Assembly: GCA_018267055.1 (NCBI GenBank)
Contig: JAFDZF010000184.1
Coordinates: 1-64,000, forward strand
DNA: 64,000 bases
Reading direction: 5' to 3'
From: Bacteroidota bacterium
GTDB lineage: Bacteria; Bacteroidota; Bacteroidia; Flavobacteriales_F; PHOS-HE28
Shown here: positions 5,113 through 43,127 of the stretch, piece by piece
Layout: each line of letters opens with the position of its first letter
Numbering within the stretch: position 1 is the first letter of the stretch
Made by a program: the position numbers and the translations under genes
Notes under the pieces: generated by a model
Told to the model about the DNA's origin: nothing
Seen by the model: the letters and a program-made list of their open reading frames with translations, nothing else
The model's database searches: none

Positions 5113-5520
5113 ATGAAACGAAGCCACCTCATCGCCCTAGTGATCATCGCCGTCGCCGTGGCCGCGCTGATCGGGTCGCTGAACGACAGCAGCAGCTATG
5201 CCGACCTCAACGAGGCCTTCGCCCAGCCGGGCGAGGAGTTCCACGTGGTGGGCACCCTGGACCGCTCGCAGCCCATCGTGTACGAGCCCAGTGTGAACGC
5301 CAGCCTCACGCGGTTCACCATGACCGACCTGAAGGGCCGGAGCTGCGAGGTGAAGCTGGCCATGGCCAAGCCGGCCGACCTGGAGCGGTCCGAGCGGCTG
5401 GTCCTCATCGGCGAAGCCTCGGCGGACGGTGCCTTCCACGCCAAGGACATGCTGCTGAAGTGCCCCAGCAAGTACAACGAGGAGAACAAGGTGACCGCCG
5501 GCATCGGATCGGACAACTAG
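5113..5520 (+). CDS. ccmE: Heme chaperone CcmE, Cys (CxxxY) variant
   Basis: A 135-residue periplasmic heme chaperone: one N-terminal anchor helix (about 6-21) then an OB-fold beta-barrel (FHVVGTLDRSQPIVYEP..., LVLIGEASADGAFHAKDMLLKCP). Classical CcmE binds heme covalently through His in an HxxxY motif. Here the position is occupied by Cys117 in CPSKY, giving C117-x3-Y121. Cys-type CcmE proteins are known from archaea and Desulfovibrio. The gene sits between ccmD and ccmF on the same strand. The family assignment is firm; that Cys117 carries heme is inferred from motif position. Confidence 0.88.
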   Translation: MKRSHLIALVIIAVAVAALIGSLNDSSSYADLNEAFAQPGEEFHVVGTLDRSQPIVYEPSVNASLTRFTMTDLKGRSCEVKLAMAKPADLERSERLVLIGEASADGAFHAKDMLLKCPSKYNEENKVTAGIGSDN

Positions 5521-5604: not shown

Positions 5605-8364
5605 GTGAGCTACATCGGCGAACACACCTGGGCGGGGCAACTGGGCCATTTCCTGGCGCTGGTCTCCTTCGCCGGGGCGCTCCTGGCGCTCGCCGGCTAC
5701 GTCCTCTTCACCCGCGGCAACGACCCGGGCTGGCGCACGGTGGGCCGCATCGGCTTCCGCGCGCACTCGGTGGCGGTGGTGGGCATCGTGGTGACGCTGT
5801 TCACCATGCTGTTCAACCACTGGTTCGAGTTCGACTACGTGTGGAAGCACAGCAACACGGAGATGCCGCTGCGCTACATCGCCAGCTGCTTCTGGGAAGG
5901 CCAGGAAGGCTCGTTCCTGCTGTGGACCTTCTGGAACGTGGTGCTGGGCAACCTGCTCATCCGCCGCGCGAAGGAGTGGGAAGGCCCGGTGCTGGCGGTG
6001 TTCGCCCTGGTGCAGGGGTTCCTGGCCACCATGCTGCTGGGCGTCCACATCGGCGACGTGCGCATCGGCAGCAGCCCCTTCCTGCTGGTGCGCGAACTGC
6101 CGGAGAACATCGGCCTGCCGTGGACCCACATCACCGATTACCTGCAGAAGATCCCCCAGTTCAAGGACGGCCGCGGCCTGAACCCGCTGCTGCAGAACTA
6201 CTGGATGGTGATCCACCCGCCCACGCTCTTCCTGGGCTTCGCCTGCACGCTAGTGCCCTTCGCCTACGCGATCGCCGGCCTGTGGACGCGGCGCCTGAAG
6301 GACTGGATGGCCCCCGCCCTCCCCTGGACCTTCGTCGGGGTGATGGTGCTCGGCACGGGCATCCTCATGGGCGGGGCCTGGGCCTATGAGGCCTTGAGCT
6401 TCGGCGGGTTCTGGGCGTGGGATCCCGTGGAGAACGCCTCGCTGGTGCCCTGGCTCACCCTGGTGGGCGCCGGCCACCTGATGCTGATCAACAAGCGGAA
6501 GGAGACCTCGCTCTTCACCACCTTCCTGCTGGCGCTGGGCACCTTCCTGCTGGTGCTCTACAGCACCTTCCTTACGCGCAGCGGCGTGCTGGGCGACACC
6601 AGCGTGCACAGCTTCACCGGCGAGGGCATGCTGCCGGGCCTGCTGGTGTTCATGCTCGCGTTCGTGGCGCTCAGCGTGGCGATGCTGAACACGGTAGCGT
6701 CCAACCGGCGTTTCTACCTGGGCCTGTGCGTGGTGATGCTCGCGTTGGGGGTCGGCCTCCGGGTGCAGGTGCCCGCGATCCTGCTCTTCGGCGCGGTGAG
6801 CCTGGTGATGACGGTGGCGGCCTACCGCACGGGCCCCTTCCATGTGGAGGCCGAGGAGAAGCTGATGAGCCGCGAGTTCTGGATCTTCATCGGCTCGCTG
6901 GTGCTGCTGCTCAGCGCGCTGCAGGTGAGCTTCAGCACGTCGGTGCCGGTGTTCAACCTGCTGCTGGAGCCCTTCCACGGGGTGCTGGCCCCGCTGGCGG
7001 AACGCACGGGCTGGGGCTGGCTGAACGACCTGGCGCAGGCCAAGCTGGCCCCGCCGGCCAATGCCAGGGCCCACTACAACAAGTGGCAGATCCCCTTCGC
7101 CTTCATCGTGGCGTTGCTGGTGGCCGTGGGGCAGTACTTCCGCTACAAGGACACCGACCGCCGCCGCTTCCTGCGGGAGCTCTCGCTCGCGCTGGCCGGC
7201 GCCGTGGCGCTCACCGCCCTGGGCACCTGGCTGCTGGGCTACCGCTTCACCGAGCTCGACCTCATCGCCCTCTTCTTCGCCACCACGTTCGCGGCGCTGG
7301 CCAACGCCTTCTACATCCCGAAGGTGCTGAAGGGCTCCCTGGCCAAGGCCGGGCCGTCCATCGCGCACGTGGGCTTCGCGCTGGTACTGCTGGGCGCACT
7401 GATCAGCACCTCGCGCCAGCACGAGATCAGCCGCAACACGAAGGGGCCGGTGCTGAGCCTGCTGAACGAGGACTTCAACGACAGCAAGGACATGCTCCTC
7501 TACCAGGGCGACACCCTGCCGATGGGCGAGCACTTCGTGACCTTCACCGGCAAGCGGCAGGAGGGCGTGAACCTCTACTTCGACATGGACTATCTGTCCG
7601 CCGAGCCCAACCGCTACCACGCGGGCGACACGGTGCGGGTCCGCAACAGCCTCTTCCGCGCGAAGGACGACCACACGCCCGGCCCCGAGTTCCTGGCGGA
7701 CCAGCCCGCGCACTGGGAGCCGGTGGAGACCTTCTCCCGCTCCGCGCTCTGGCGCACCCCGCGCTGGACGGCCCGCAGGCCGGGCGGACGCACCTTCGCC
7801 CTGGCGCCGCTGGTGCAGCTGAACCCGCGCTTCGGCAACGTGGCCGAGCCCAGCACCAAGCACTGGCCGCAGCGCGACCTCTACACGCACATCCGCTACG
7901 CCAAGCTGGACACCCTGGGCGACGGCTTCATGCCCGCCCGCCTCTACGAGCGCAACGTGGGCGACACCATCGTGACACCGACCTGCGTGGTGCTCATCGA
8001 CAGCGTGCGCGCCGTGCGCGACAGCGTGACCATCGCCCGCCTGGGCCCCGACTACACCGTGTACCTGCTGAACATGAAGGTGCGCGACCTGTACGACGAC
8101 AGCCGCTGGTTCGAGGCGCGGCCGGTGGTGATCTACCGTTTCGACCAGCCGGTGGGCAGCAAGGGCTTCGCCATCCCCCAGCTGAACGTGAAGTTCGACC
8201 TGGCCACCGTGAAGGGCCGGCAGGTGGGCCTCAACGTGAGCGAGCGTGAGTTCGTGATCATGCAGGCCATCGTCTTCCCGGGCATCAACATCCTGTGGAT
8301 CGGCTGCATCCTGATGGCCGCGGGCACCTTCGTCGCCATCCGGCAGCGGATGCGGGGCCGGTGA
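5605..8364 (+). CDS. ccmF: Cytochrome c heme lyase CcmF/CcsA-type
   Basis: A 919-residue membrane protein that ligates heme to apocytochrome c in the periplasm. It has about 14 hydrophobic helices and the WWD heme-handling motif FGGFWAWDPVENASLVPW around residues 267-284. A soluble periplasmic domain follows near 610-870, and the last helix is at about 890-912. The length is longer than proteobacterial CcmF (about 650) but such long forms are usual in Bacteroidota. The start is GTG at 5605, directly before the first helix; no in-frame ATG precedes the conserved part. It is the last ccm gene of the run. No ccmG or ccmH follows, so partner thioredoxin-like proteins must be encoded elsewhere if present. 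Confidence 0.9.
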   Translation: MSYIGEHTWAGQLGHFLALVSFAGALLALAGYVLFTRGNDPGWRTVGRIGFRAHSVAVVGIVVTLFTMLFNHWFEFDYVWKHSNTEMPLRYIASCFWEGQEGSFLLWTFWNVVLGNLLIRRAKEWEGPVLAVFALVQGFLATMLLGVHIGDVRIGSSPFLLVRELPENIGLPWTHITDYLQKIPQFKDGRGLNPLLQNYWMVIHPPTLFLGFACTLVPFAYAIAGLWTRRLKDWMAPALPWTFVGVMVLGTGILMGGAWAYEALSFGGFWAWDPVENASLVPWLTLVGAGHLMLINKRKETSLFTTFLLALGTFLLVLYSTFLTRSGVLGDTSVHSFTGEGMLPGLLVFMLAFVALSVAMLNTVASNRRFYLGLCVVMLALGVGLRVQVPAILLFGAVSLVMTVAAYRTGPFHVEAEEKLMSREFWIFIGSLVLLLSALQVSFSTSVPVFNLLLEPFHGVLAPLAERTGWGWLNDLAQAKLAPPANARAHYNKWQIPFAFIVALLVAVGQYFRYKDTDRRRFLRELSLALAGAVALTALGTWLLGYRFTELDLIALFFATTFAALANAFYIPKVLKGSLAKAGPSIAHVGFALVLLGALISTSRQHEISRNTKGPVLSLLNEDFNDSKDMLLYQGDTLPMGEHFVTFTGKRQEGVNLYFDMDYLSAEPNRYHAGDTVRVRNSLFRAKDDHTPGPEFLADQPAHWEPVETFSRSALWRTPRWTARRPGGRTFALAPLVQLNPRFGNVAEPSTKHWPQRDLYTHIRYAKLDTLGDGFMPARLYERNVGDTIVTPTCVVLIDSVRAVRDSVTIARLGPDYTVYLLNMKVRDLYDDSRWFEARPVVIYRFDQPVGSKGFAIPQLNVKFDLATVKGRQVGLNVSEREFVIMQAIVFPGINILWIGCILMAAGTFVAIRQRMRGR

Positions 8365-38412: not shown

Positions 38413-38447
38413 CAAGGCTAGCGGGCGATCCTGAAGGTTTTCGGAAG
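38413..38447 (-). promoter_or_regulatory. Operator-promoter copy A, upstream of PepSY-like gene
   Basis: On the minus strand: CTTCCG (38447-38442), 5 bases, CTTCAG (38436-38431), 10 bases, then TAGCCTTG (38420-38413), a -7-like box. Half-sites are 11 bases apart, the geometry of OmpR/PmrA-type response-regulator sites. It matches copy B (40642-40676) base for base in spacing. Confidence 0.65.
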
Positions 38448-38452
38448 GCGGC

Positions 38453-40636
38453 CTAGCCGAAGCGGTAGAGCACGCTCAGGTTGATGGCACGGCCGTCGAT
38501 GGGCGCCCACAAGGGCACGAACACGGGCCGCGACAGGGTGCCCAGCACCACCCGCTCCTCGCGCGTCTGCCGCACGTCCAGCAGGTTCTCGCCGTTGAGC
38601 ACGATGTTCCAGGGCCCGGTGGTGTAGCCCACCATGGCGGCCGTGGCCCACTGGTCGCCCGTGCGGGTCCCGTCGAAGCTGTCCTGCCGTCCGCTGTACG
38701 ATGCCTCGATGCCCGCGCGCCAATGCGGCCCGAACACCCGGCTCAGGGTGGCCGCCGCGCGGTGCTCGGGCGTATAGGCCACCAGCATCCGCTCACGGCC
38801 CGCCACCTGTTGCGGCACCGTCCAAGTGTAGCCGAGGTACAGTTCGGCGTCGCCGTGGGTGATGCGGATGTAGTTGTCGATGCCGCGCGTGAGCGTGTGC
38901 CCCGGCGCGTTGACGAGCGATGCGTCCCCGTTCACCGGCACGACGGCGAGCGGGTCCGAGATCCGCGTGAGGAAGAACGTCTGGTCGATGAATACCGCGT
39001 ACTGCTCCGACACCACGGCCCGCCAGGTCCATTCCGCCGTGCCCCCGAACGAACGCTCCGCCCCGACACCGGTCCCCAGCACGGGCGTGGGGTCCTGTTC
39101 CGCCACAAGGCCGTAAGGCTGGCTGCGATCGGGCAACTGGTAGCCCGTGCCGGCATTGGCGCGCAGCACCAGCCGCGCCCCCGCCTTGTAGAGCGCCGCG
39201 ATGGAAGGCAGCACGAAGGTGCCGTAGCGGGCGTTGTGGTCGGTGCGCAGCCCCAGCTCGATGTTCGGCCATCGCTCCCGGTGCAGGGCGTATTGCGCGA
39301 AGGCCCCCACGGTGCCGAGCGACTGCGTCGCGCTGTCCGGGCCGGACAGCCGCATGCCCCAGAAGTTGGCGCCCACCACCCAGGTGCGGCGTGCATCGGC
39401 CGCTTTCCAATAGGCCTCTCCGTACAGGTTGTCCTGCATCGATCGGGGCGCATCCGGTGCGAGCGTGGACCGGGCCTGTTGCCAGTAGCGCCCCACGCTG
39501 CCCTTCACGGTGAGCGCATGCCCGGCGTCCACGCGGTGCTCGCCGATCAGGTCCAGCGCCAGGCGCCGGCCCTCGCGGTGCTCCACGAAGGCGGCCGTGT
39601 CGTCCAGGGCGTCCAGGGCCGAGAGGCGCCCGCCGCACCGCCGCTCGTCCTGCGCCAGCAGCCCGACGCGCACCGTGCTGCGTGCCGAGGGCTTCAGGAA
39701 GAGCTGCGGATGCACCTGCACCTGGCGGAGCGCCGGCACATCGGTCCAGCCGTCGCCGTCCACGTCCATGGCCTGCTGCCCCGTGGCACCGGCGAACAGG
39801 GTGAACGCCGCCTTGCCCAAAGGACCGCTCAGGTAGGCGTTCATGTTGCCTTCGCGGAGCGTGGTCGCGTTCACCATCACCAGGCCGGTGAGGCTGTCGG
39901 TGGGCTCCTTGGTCACGAAATCGATGGCCCCCGCGATGGCGCCGCCCCCGTGGAAGGTGGACGAAGGCCCCTTCAGCACTTCGATGCGCGCGAGGTCCAG
40001 CGGCGGCAGGCGGAGGATGTCGAAGCCCCCGCTCAATCCGCCATAGGCCGGCAGGCCGTCGCGGAGCAACAGGGTATGGCGGCCCTGGAGGCCCTGCATG
40101 CGCACCTGGCTCGCCCCGCTCACCGCGCTGAGCTGCTGGACCTGCACCGAGCTGATGTCGCCCAGCAGGCCCATGACGTTCCCCGGCTCCAGCGAGCCTT
40201 CCTCCAGCAGCTCGTCCGCACCGAGCACCTCGATCTTCTGCGGCACGTCGTCGATGCGCGAGCCGGTGCGCGTGGCCGTTACCACCGCTTCCTGCAGTTC
40301 CTCGTTCGCGCTCGCCAGCCGCACCACCAGGTCCGGCGTGCTCCGGGGCAGCGTCACCGTCACCTCACGGCCGCGATAGCCCACCAGCGCGAAGCGGAAC
40401 ACCTGCGGTCCGTCGGCAAGGTCGCGGAAGGTCATCCGTCCATCGGCATCGGCCGTGGCCGCCCGCGGGGTGCCCACCAGCACGGCGCTGGTCCCGGGCA
40501 AAGGCTCCGCGGTGGCGCTGTCCTGCACCAGGATGTTCAAGGTGTGCTGCGCGCCGGCCTGGAAGGCGGCACCGGACAGGACGACCAGTGCAAGCGCGCG
40601 GAGCGCATGCCGGAGCAACGGAACGGGGCTCGTCAT
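38453..40636 (-). CDS. TonB-dependent outer-membrane receptor with carboxypeptidase-like domain
   Basis: A 727-residue receptor. Parts in order: signal peptide (to FQAGAQ, about 29), carboxypeptidase-like Ig domain (30-115; ILVQDSATAEPLPGTSAVLVG), TonB-box/plug (about 120-245; AVVTATRTGSRIDDVP, QVRMQGLQGRHTLLLRDG, GPSSTFHGGGAIAGAIDFV) and a barrel closing with GRAINLSVLYRFG. The plug and the QDERRCGG strand resemble siderophore/cobalamin/metal receptors, but the ligand cannot be read. Its ATG overlaps the histidine kinase stop by 4 bases, and operator copy B lies 5 bases before the ATG inside the kinase gene. Function is thus tied to the sensor system. Confidence 0.88.
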   Translation of the reverse strand: MTSPVPLLRHALRALALVVLSGAAFQAGAQHTLNILVQDSATAEPLPGTSAVLVGTPRAATADADGRMTFRDLADGPQVFRFALVGYRGREVTVTLPRSTPDLVVRLASANEELQEAVVTATRTGSRIDDVPQKIEVLGADELLEEGSLEPGNVMGLLGDISSVQVQQLSAVSGASQVRMQGLQGRHTLLLRDGLPAYGGLSGGFDILRLPPLDLARIEVLKGPSSTFHGGGAIAGAIDFVTKEPTDSLTGLVMVNATTLREGNMNAYLSGPLGKAAFTLFAGATGQQAMDVDGDGWTDVPALRQVQVHPQLFLKPSARSTVRVGLLAQDERRCGGRLSALDALDDTAAFVEHREGRRLALDLIGEHRVDAGHALTVKGSVGRYWQQARSTLAPDAPRSMQDNLYGEAYWKAADARRTWVVGANFWGMRLSGPDSATQSLGTVGAFAQYALHRERWPNIELGLRTDHNARYGTFVLPSIAALYKAGARLVLRANAGTGYQLPDRSQPYGLVAEQDPTPVLGTGVGAERSFGGTAEWTWRAVVSEQYAVFIDQTFFLTRISDPLAVVPVNGDASLVNAPGHTLTRGIDNYIRITHGDAELYLGYTWTVPQQVAGRERMLVAYTPEHRAAATLSRVFGPHWRAGIEASYSGRQDSFDGTRTGDQWATAAMVGYTTGPWNIVLNGENLLDVRQTREERVVLGTLSRPVFVPLWAPIDGRAINLSVLYRFG

Positions 40637-41958
40637 GGCCGCAAGGCTAGCCGGGCTTCCTGAAGGCTTTCGGAAGGCGATCGGAACGACAGCGTGAAGG
40701 AGTGCCATCCCTCGCGATGGGCGTAGGCGAGCCGTGCCCCGTGCAGGTCGGCGATGCGCTTGGCGATGGAGAGCCCCAGCCCGTGGCCCTTGTGCCGCGC
40801 ATCGAAGGTGCGGAAGCGCTGGAAGAGCAGGGCCGGGTCCAGCGGCGGCGTATCGCCGGTGTTGGCCACCACCAGCGTGCCGGGCTCCAGGTCGATGCGG
40901 ATGCGCCCGCCGGGCCGGTTGTGCCGGAGCGCATTGGAGAGCAGGTTGCCCACGAGCGAAGCCGCCAGCGTGGCGTGGACGGCGAGCTGGATCCCCGGCC
41001 GCACGTGCTGTTCCACGATGATGCCTTGCAGGGCCGCCTGTTCCGCGAGCGCGTCGGCGCTCCGGGCCACGAGGGCCGAAAGGTCGATGGGCGCCTCCGC
41101 GGGCCACTGTCCGTTCTCGATCCGGCTGAGCAGCAACAGGTCCTGGTGCAGGTGCGCCAGGCGGTCCACCGTGCGCTTCGCCCCTTCCACCAGTTCCGCC
41201 TGTTCCTCGGTGAGCCCGGGCGATTGCAGCAGCAGGTCCATGCGGCTCTGCAGCAGGGCCAGCGGGGTCTGCATCTCGTGCGCGGCGTTCTCGGTGAACT
41301 CCTTCTGCTCGCGGTAGGTGGCCAGGGCGCGGTCGGCCAATCGGACGAGGGTGGTGTTCAGCTCGTTGAGCTCGGCCACGTCGGAAGCCGCCGGCACCAG
41401 GGGCCGCTGCGCCGAAAGGTCGAACGCGCGCAAGCGGGCCAGCGTGTCCTCGAAAGGGCGCCACACCCGGCGGCCCAGGCGCTTGTTCAGCAGCACGAAG
41501 CCGACCAGCAGCACCGCCAGGAACGCGGCCGTGACCGTCACCAGGGCCCCCACCACCTCGTCGGTCTCCTCCACTTCCTCTTCCAGCACCACGGCCCACG
41601 TGGTGCCGTTGGCCTGCACCGTGCCCGCGAGGCAGCGGAACTGCTCATCGCCCCCGCCCGGCTCGTCGGGATGCAATGCCGTGTAGATGCTGTCCGGGCG
41701 CGCAGGCCCCGCGATGGGCGTCAGCACCAGGCCGGGTTGTAAGCGCTCGGCCAGGCGGGCGGCCTGCAGCAAGGTGTCGCCCGTGAGGCCTGTCCGCGCC
41801 AGGCCCTCCTCCAACGCGTCGCGCCGATCGGTCAGGCCCTCGTCCACGCTGCCCATCCAGAGCGACCGCACCATCAGGTAATAGCCCGGCACGCTCAATA
41901 GCAGCACCGCCACCGCATACAGCGACAGCCTCCGGAGCGAGCGATCGAGCAGCCTCAC
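40633..41958 (-). CDS. Sensor histidine kinase
   Basis: A 441-residue membrane kinase. Two helices (about 12-30 and 137-157) flank a periplasmic sensor of about 105 residues. A HAMP-like linker and dimerisation helices carry the phospho-acceptor His227 in FTENAAHEMQTPL. The HATPase part has NLLSNALRHN (338-347) and GHGLGLSIAK (391-400). The start is GTG at 41958, overlapping the response-regulator stop (GTGA). Its stop overlaps the receptor start (ATGA). It phosphorylates the adjacent OmpR-type regulator; the signal is unknown. Confidence 0.93.
   Translation of the reverse strand: MRLLDRSLRRLSLYAVAVLLLSVPGYYLMVRSLWMGSVDEGLTDRRDALEEGLARTGLTGDTLLQAARLAERLQPGLVLTPIAGPARPDSIYTALHPDEPGGGDEQFRCLAGTVQANGTTWAVVLEEEVEETDEVVGALVTVTAAFLAVLLVGFVLLNKRLGRRVWRPFEDTLARLRAFDLSAQRPLVPAASDVAELNELNTTLVRLADRALATYREQKEFTENAAHEMQTPLALLQSRMDLLLQSPGLTEEQAELVEGAKRTVDRLAHLHQDLLLLSRIENGQWPAEAPIDLSALVARSADALAEQAALQGIIVEQHVRPGIQLAVHATLAASLVGNLLSNALRHNRPGGRIRIDLEPGTLVVANTGDTPPLDPALLFQRFRTFDARHKGHGLGLSIAKRIADLHGARLAYAHREGWHSFTLSFRSPSESLQEARLALRP
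40642..40676 (-). promoter_or_regulatory. Operator-promoter copy B, upstream of TonB receptor, inside the kinase gene
   Basis: On the minus strand: CTTCCG (40676-40671), 5 bases, CTTCAG (40665-40660), 10 bases, TAGCCTTG (40649-40642), then 5 bases to the receptor ATG at 40636. It lies within the last codons of the kinase gene and would give a leaderless receptor transcript independent of the upstream genes. Confidence 0.65.
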
Positions 41959-42629
41959 GCCTCGAACTTGTATCCGGTGGCGTAGATGGTGCGGATGTGG
42001 TCCGTGCACCCCGCCTCCGCGAGCTTGCGCTTCAGGTTCTTCATGTGCGCGTACACCAGGTCGAAGCTGCCCAGCAGGTCCGCGCGGTCGCCGACGATGT
42101 ACTCCGCCAGCGCGGTCTTCGACAGCACCTTGCCCGCCGAGGCCACCAGGTAGTGCAGCAGCCGGTATTCCGTGGGGGTGAGCGGGAGCGGCCGCCCTCC
42201 ATGGCTGGCGGTGTGGGCCAGCAGGTCCAGGGTGAGGCCGCCCGCCTCCACCACGTTCCGCCCCTGGAACTGGTTGCGGCGCGTGATGGCGAGGATGCGC
42301 ACCGCCAGCTCGGCCAGGTGGAACGGCTTGGGCAGGTAATCGTCCGCGCCGATGCGGATGCCTTCGATGCGGTCGTCCACCGAATCGCGGGCGCTGAGGA
42401 TGATCACCCCGTCGGTCCGGCCCAGCCGCTTCAGCTCCCGCAGTACCTCCAGGCCGCTGCCATCGGGCAGGGTGATGTCCAGCAGGATGCAGTCGTAGGG
42501 ATACAGCTGAACGCGCTCCAGCGCTTCGGCCACGGTGGCGGCCCGCTCGCACAGGGTGTTCGCGTCGCTGAAATAGCGGGCGATATCGGCGGCGAGCTCG
42601 GCCTCGTCCTCAACGATGAGCAGCTTCAT
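41955..42629 (-). CDS. OmpR-family response regulator
   Basis: A 224-residue two-domain regulator. The receiver has acidic Glu7/Asp8, phospho-acceptor Asp51 (ILLDITLPDGSG), Ser79 and Lys101 (DDYLPKPF). The C-terminal winged-helix DNA-binding domain (about 125-224) has LTPTEYRLLHYL and IRTIYATGYKFEA. It is the first gene of the minus-strand unit regulator-kinase-receptor(-PepSY), coupled by GTGA overlap to the kinase. An operator-like copy C just before its ATG suggests autoregulation. ATG 42629 is the start because it opens the receiver fold. Confidence 0.94.
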   Translation of the reverse strand: MKLLIVEDEAELAADIARYFSDANTLCERAATVAEALERVQLYPYDCILLDITLPDGSGLEVLRELKRLGRTDGVIILSARDSVDDRIEGIRIGADDYLPKPFHLAELAVRILAITRRNQFQGRNVVEAGGLTLDLLAHTASHGGRPLPLTPTEYRLLHYLVASAGKVLSKTALAEYIVGDRADLLGSFDLVYAHMKNLKRKLAEAGCTDHIRTIYATGYKFEA

Positions 42630-42635
42630 CGGGCG

Positions 42636-42670
42636 GGAAGCAACGGCACGAAGTTGAAGGGAAACTGAAC
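42636..42670 (-). promoter_or_regulatory. Operator-promoter copy C, upstream of response regulator
   Basis: On the minus strand: GTTCAG (42670-42665), 5 bases, CTTCAA (42659-42654), 10 bases, TTGCTTCC (42643-42636), 6 bases to the ATG at 42629. Spacing is identical to copies A and B, the half-sites slightly degenerate, as often seen at an autoregulated promoter. Confidence 0.5.
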
Positions 42671-42704: not shown

Positions 42705-43127
42705 ATGGACCGCGCGGTGGCCTATGCCCTCCTCTCCATGGTCTTCGCCGGCGTCACCGCGGTGATCGCCAAGGCGGGCATGCGCAACGTGGGCGGCGAC
42801 ACCGCGCTCGCCGTCCGCACCAGCCTCATCTTCCTCCTGGTCTGGGCCAACGTGCTCGCCTACCGGCGCGTGGAGGAGCTGCGGCTGTTGACCCGGTCGG
42901 ACCTCCTGTTCCTCGGCCTTTCCGGCGCCACCACCTTCCTCTCCTGGCTCTTCTACTACCGCGCGATGAAGGTGGGCGACGTCTCGTTGGTGGCCGTCAT
43001 CGACAAGGCCAGCATCGTGGTCACCCTGGTGCTGTGCTTCTGGCTGCTGAAGGAACCCTTCACCTGGCGGATCGCCCTGGGCGCCATCCTCATCCTCGCC
43101 GGCCTGCTGGTGCTCATCTGGAGGTGA
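42705..43127 (+). CDS. Half-length EamA-family transporter
   Basis: A 140-residue membrane protein with one EamA domain (four to five helices: YALLSMVFAGVTAVIAKAGM, RTSLIFLLVWANVLAY, LFLGLSGATTFLSWLFYYRAM, KASIVVTLVLCFWLL, IALGAILILAGLLVLIW). Typical DMT exporters have two such repeats and about 300 residues. The conserved features (KAGMRNVGGD, YYRAMKVGDVSLVAVIDK) are those of the C-terminal EamA half. Single-repeat members exist and would need to dimerise, like SMR proteins. Substrate unknown. It is divergent from the two-component operon. Confidence 0.85.
   Translation: MDRAVAYALLSMVFAGVTAVIAKAGMRNVGGDTALAVRTSLIFLLVWANVLAYRRVEELRLLTRSDLLFLGLSGATTFLSWLFYYRAMKVGDVSLVAVIDKASIVVTLVLCFWLLKEPFTWRIALGAILILAGLLVLIWR

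Follow-up and report, generated by a model that had tools for sequence, protein, structure and literature searches.

We describe a four-gene locus that probably constitutes a self-contained, autoregulated two-component regulon, in which the response regulator would activate three promoters and a secreted PepSY_like protein would feed back on the sensor kinase. The locus lies within a 64,000-nucleotide stretch of DNA (hereafter the window) from a Bacteroidota genome assembly of 3.86 Mb in 203 contigs. Judged from sequence, the recurrence of the gene set together with its control site in many relatives marks a real, testable regulon and no chance pattern. The core of the regulon is strongly supported because phylogenetic footprinting recovers its sites in other genomes and because further sites are nearly absent from its own. 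A first-pass annotation of the window had proposed that the regulator acts on itself, on a TonB-dependent receptor and on the PepSY-like gene; the sites and their conservation hold up on these same two lines of evidence, and binding by the regulator is predicted.

The locus and its four proteins

All four genes lie on the minus strand, in the order regulator (42629-41955), kinase (41958-40633), receptor (40636-38453) and PepSY_like (38373-37888), with a GC content of 65-71% in a window of 67.5%. The 4-base overlaps noted in the first-pass annotation are present between regulator and kinase (41958-41955) and between kinase and receptor (40636-40633). The PepSY_like gene sits just beyond the coordinates given there and does not overlap the receptor gene, from which a gap of ~80 bases separates it.

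The regulator (224 aa) combines a receiver with a winged-helix output domain (Pfam Response_reg and Trans_reg_C), the architecture of OmpR/PhoB-type regulators. Its best NCBIfam model is PmrA, at 154 bits against a cut-off of 330, which leaves it outside the PmrA equivalog group and an OmpR/PmrA-type protein in the broad sense. The kinase (441 aa, GTG start) carries HisKA and HATPase_c domains and belongs to the NCBI PorY family (NF052314, 374 bits against a cut-off of 350); its AlphaFold model contains a single periplasmic sensor region roughly 100 residues long (~residues 33-131). The third gene encodes a TonB-dependent receptor with a signal peptide, plug and barrel, and an N-terminal carboxypeptidase-regulatory-like domain (Pfam Plug, barrel, CarbopepD_reg_2), for which neither an NCBIfam substrate model over its cut-off nor a sufficiently close PDB relative was found. 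A YncE-like beta-propeller gene adjoins relatives of this receptor in about 13 loci; in one of the loci compared (L243), which has no kinase nearby, a YncE-like gene stands between PepSY_like and receptor. We claim no ligand for the receptor, because this neighbor is absent here.

The last protein is a secreted member of the PepSY_like family (DUF2874), with two PepSY-type repeats and an acidic tail. It matches PF11396 at 48.9 bits (cut-off 28.3) and no other PepSY family, and its AlphaFold model (pLDDT 87.7) consists of two helix-plus-four-strand repeats. Foldseek relates this model to 3u1w, 4fr9 and 4k61, solved DUF2874/BLIP-like proteins of Bacteroides and Parabacteroides, placing the protein in PF11396 by both gathering score and BLIP-like fold. 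The DUF2874/PepSY_like family is centered on Bacteroidota, and several of its solved structures were deposited as periplasmic, with a function given as unknown or putative. In PADLOC, the receiver part of the regulator drew two weak partial matches and the remaining three proteins drew none; with no full match to a PADLOC protein model, the earlier suggestion of a defence system finds no support.

A shared operator before three transcription units

Three sites on the minus strand share a geometry of two 6-base half-sites separated by 5 bases, a 10-base spacer and an 8-base -7 box (6-5-6-10-8), and re-reading the sequence places them exactly where the first-pass annotation had put them. Operator-promoter A (38447-38413; CTTCCG-AAAAC-CTTCAG, spacer GATCGCCCGC, -7 box TAGCCTTG) lies upstream of the PepSY_like gene, with 39 bases between box and ATG. 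Operator-promoter B (40676-40642; CTTCCG-AAAGC-CTTCAG, spacer GAAGCCCGGC, again with the box TAGCCTTG) falls within the 3' end of the kinase gene, and its box ends 5 bases before the receptor ATG. Operator C (42670-42636; GTTCAG-TTTCC-CTTCAA, spacer CTTCGTGCCG, weak box TTGCTTCC) has its box end 6 bases before the regulator ATG. Sites A and B show 85% similarity across 41 bases, flank the receptor gene exactly and have boxes close to consensus. Beyond site C lies a divergent EamA-type transporter gene (window 42705-43127); as its start is only 75 bases from that of the regulator, C could also affect this gene.

The pattern is rare in its own genome, which was scanned by pattern search with mismatches and not with a motif matrix. 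In the whole 3.86-Mb genome, the paired half-sites CTTCNG-N5-CTTCAG occur twice, at A and B; the full pattern likewise occurs twice here and is absent from the 44 genus relatives searched. A relaxed pattern with one mismatch adds to A, B and C only a single match inside a coding frame, which resembles rpoB by our own reading of its translation, is rejected by the motif matrix described below and is deemed a chance occurrence. The genome-wide search suggested in the first-pass annotation thus finds the motif to be infrequent. Dinucleotide-shuffled versions of the window gave a mean of 0.14 matches even at three mismatches. The second PepSY_like gene of this genome (on contig C24) has no such site nearby.

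The same operator emerges from other genomes without reference to this one. We took regulator and kinase relatives from other families of the class, with gene starts in those genomes guessed by rule, and scanned their upstream regions for exact 6-mer repeats at periods of 7 to 25. An 11-bp peak appeared before regulator genes (22/67 against 3.7 expected) and before PepSY genes (18/51 against 3.8), with a weaker one before receptor genes (10/61 against 4.1). De novo expectation maximisation from random starts, applied to 81 regions upstream of regulator and PepSY genes, all from outside the genus, yielded TTCAGAATTTCTTCAGAATTGnnnCnTAAnTTTG, that is, 6-5-6 half-sites followed by 10 bases and a Bacteroidota -7 box. 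In its short form, TTCAGAATTTCTTCAGAAT-N7-TAAnTTTG, the geometry equals that of A, B and C. Conservation points to a direct-repeat operator with the 10-11-bp period typical of OmpR/PhoB-type regulators.

Applied to the ~128,000 positions of the window, the motif matrix ranks A first (23.1 bits), C second (19.0) and B third (9.7), compared with best scores in shuffled windows averaging 4.8 with a 95th percentile of 9.8. Site B is borderline by this measure, and the case for it also draws on its position and on its being nearly identical to A. Site C had been called degenerate, which is true of its poor -7 box and not of its half-sites, since these match the class motif well and score above B. 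When retrained on half of the kinase-selected loci, the procedure returned the same motif and the same three top sites in the window, and 24/31 held-out regions exceeded the 1% shuffle threshold. Among kinase-selected loci, 30/39 regulators and 21/26 PepSY genes carry a site, against 20/318 other gene starts. Furthermore, across 22 loci outside the training set, an operator stands before the regulator gene in 15/22 cases, before the PepSY gene in 15/18 and before the receptor gene in 14/22, and regulator operators in other genomes are placed as C is. Chance repeats were considered as a source of these sites and ruled out by genome rarity, shuffles, top matrix ranks and held-out retraining.

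The position of the box also bears on how translation may begin. In Flavobacterium psychrophilum, the box TAnnTTTG occupies positions -12 to -5, and leaderless transcripts make up only 5.5% of the mapped mRNAs (PMC9723704). With box-to-ATG distances of 5 bases at B and 6 at C, the predicted 5' leaders are therefore 0-3 bases long, and the regulator and receptor mRNAs are predicted from sequence to be leaderless or nearly so. In the class, 16/32 operator-bearing regulator genes show a box-to-ATG gap of 4-7 bases (a binomial test, run with 15/32, gave p ~3e-11), and among new loci the same gap was found for 7/15 regulators.

Recurrence of the gene set and the proposed circuit

The trio of regulator, kinase and PepSY_like is common in the class, occurring in 23/40 kinase-selected loci; in these, at most 3.5 kb separate PepSY_like from the kinase, and ~0.04 such loci would be expected using a PepSY frequency from a rough count. 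An OmpR-type regulator adjoins every sampled kinase relative, usually with overlap. Receptor relatives occur in 61/395 class genomes, and a search of named genomes gave 80 receptor loci, 23 of them with an adjoining kinase pair. A strong operator stands directly before the receptor in 15/23 kinase-linked loci versus 9/52 without a kinase (odds ratio 9, p ~1e-4), and in one compared set receptor operators were present in 6/6 other kinase-linked loci. In the named set, 8/23 kinase-linked receptors are without a strong operator of their own, and some of these may simply be cotranscribed. The synteny search proposed in the first-pass annotation also bears fruit: besides the window, eleven fetched loci show the order regulator-kinase-receptor-PepSY, and they represent ten other genomes since L042 and L235 are the same contig. 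Flavihumibacter profundi (L237), a harmless and cultivable relative, has this gene order too. In several loci, as in the window, each of the three transcription units is preceded by an operator (for example, L042/L235, L222, L240, L257, L262 and L275). Other gene orders exist too.

Within the genus, the receptor was not found in the other 44 genomes; it may have been gained by the host species or lost by other members, and its regulation here may accordingly be recent. Two loci of the same genus (L150 and L151), with regulators 54-55% identical to this one, carry PepSY_like ahead of the regulator-kinase pair, and we could find no receptor in them; the PepSY operator of L151, CTTCCG-N5-CTTCCG, resembles A and B. 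Elsewhere, in L035/L220, L040/L280 and L037, the pair of regulator and kinase that follows the receptor is a more distant one (regulator match 1e-23 or weaker), and the same operator lies just before the open frame of the receptor; the motif may thus be common to a second subgroup of regulators. Another locus, L065, has three strong operators (1875-1910, 5147-5182 and 5955-5990), one before PepSY_like and two elsewhere, which suggests a wider regulon in that genome.

Gene families, operator, geometry and conservation before all three genes are read from sequence, and from them we infer binding, activation, feedback, signal and receptor ligand. In the proposed circuit, an envelope signal would cause the PorY-type kinase to phosphorylate the adjacent OmpR/PmrA-type regulator, which would bind the 11-bp-period direct repeats one helical turn upstream of the -7 box, the repeats standing in for a -33 element. 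The regulator would thereby activate its own operon through C, the TonB receptor through B and the PepSY_like gene through A. The secreted PepSY_like protein would most likely act on the periplasmic sensor region of the kinase as negative feedback, like DbfQ on DbfS. In V. cholerae, binding of DbfQ to the DbfS sensor domain turns this kinase toward phosphatase activity (PMC12714742), which makes PepSY_like the natural candidate for such feedback and, by analogy, modulation of the sensor plausible. The receptor would import, or help to report on, the compound or metal watched by the kinase, a metal or metal chelate being a leading guess only.

Instead of regulating the kinase, PepSY_like could be an effector of the same regulon, for example an envelope metal or calcium buffer, a possible reading that we nonetheless doubt. 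Its relatives 3u1w and 3db7 are titled calcium binding and calcium-regulated, respectively, its tail is acidic, and PepSY domains have been linked to the binding of metals (PMC12714742); however, the tight class-wide linkage to the kinase and the DbfQ precedent fit a kinase partner, and an effector needs no such closeness. It is unlikely that the regulator represses all or some of the three promoters. A regulator bound immediately ahead of the -7 box could obstruct polymerase just as it could recruit it, and the boxes of A and B are near consensus, yet the repeat takes the place of the -33 region with a constant spacer of 10 bp, the arrangement of class II activation, BqsR, whose geometry is similar, is an activator, and dbfQRS is positively autoregulated. 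Very improbable, despite the NF052314 score, is a kinase that is a true PorY feeding PorX and the type IX secretion system, with the adjacent regulator incidental: every sampled relative has its own adjacent OmpR-type regulator, and porX and porY of P. gingivalis are far apart and not autoregulated (PMC8050853). We reject this link as the main reading because the regulator is of OmpR type and adjacent. That A and B arose as a duplication when the receptor gene was inserted, and are devoid of regulatory meaning, is scarcely credible and largely refuted: their likeness, their exact flanking of the gene and its absence from 44 genus relatives invite the idea, but the resemblance ends close to the borders of the motif, a third and diverged copy exists in C, and many unrelated genomes whose flanking sequences differ have the motif before the same genes.

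Beyond the autoregulated circuit that we favor for this locus, we offer a broader proposal, serious but tentative, in which DUF2874/PepSY_like proteins are dedicated periplasmic partners of PorY-type kinases and, together with the repeat-plus-box operator, make up a hitherto unnamed sensing module spanning the class; its regulator mRNA would often be leaderless, and a TonB receptor would repeatedly have been recruited into it. The circuit favored for this locus would give a testable role to a periplasmic family with structures but no known function, provide a regulator group common across Bacteroidota with an operator matrix ready for use, and extend the principle of PepSY-controlled kinases, described in 2025, to a phylum that the survey did not name. 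Moreover, the predicted leaderless starts bear on how Bacteroidota begin translation, and the whole circuit is open to bench dissection because the regulon is tiny (three sites).

Comparison with known systems

The regulator shares its domain make-up with PmrA/QseB, PmrA being the nearest NCBIfam model, and the PmrA box is a 6-5-6 direct repeat like the operator here. Unlike PmrA, however, this regulator scores far below the PmrA cut-off, and its regulon contains no lipid A genes. The kinase links the locus to PorXY of Porphyromonas gingivalis through the PorY family, whereas its adjacent partner is an OmpR-type regulator with Trans_reg_C and PorX is a REC-PglZ protein; predicted autoregulation and linkage to a receptor and a PepSY_like gene further set the locus apart. 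The NF052314 model catches kinases paired with an adjacent OmpR-type regulator of their own, and its PorY name is probably over-extended. CrtA and other TonB receptor operons with PepSY_TM (PMC12914433) also place a receptor beside a PepSY-named protein, but PepSY_TM is a membrane protein (a FoxB-like reductase) of another family, and those operons have no kinase and a different regulation.

BqsRS (CarRS) of P. aeruginosa is closer, with the PepSY genes PA2658/PA2659 beside the pair and direct repeats of 11-bp period. BqsR is an activator at TTAAG-N6-TTAAG, with an 11-bp period and one pentamer over the -35 (PMC4682146). Its half-site TTAAG differs from the TTC(A/C)G found here, and BqsR has 432 consensus-like sites (with up to two mutations) compared with seemingly three in the present genome.

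The first-pass annotation did not recognize the combination as a described system, which stands in part. PepSY modules with two-component systems were described in 2025 across phyla, in a survey whose text names Proteobacteria, Terrabacteria and Fusobacteria and does not name Bacteroidota (PMC12714742). In the open-access literature, we found no description of the Bacteroidota PF11396 version with its operator and receptor, nor any paper on PorY with PepSY or on PepSY with direct-repeat regulators. The likeness to DbfQRS lies in a small secreted PepSY-fold protein encoded beside an OmpR-type regulator and kinase, within four genes of the pair. The dbfQRS operon is positively autoregulated (PMC12714742), and operator C predicts that the present operon may be so too. 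In contrast to the single IPR025711 PepSY domain of the surveyed proteins, PepSY_like has two repeats of PF11396, a related fold in a different family; its gene lies downstream with an operator of its own, a TonB receptor is added and the promoters are those of Bacteroidota. As PF11396 falls outside the surveyed family and kinase binding is proposed by analogy only, we regard the module as a variant of DbfQRS and not as a member.
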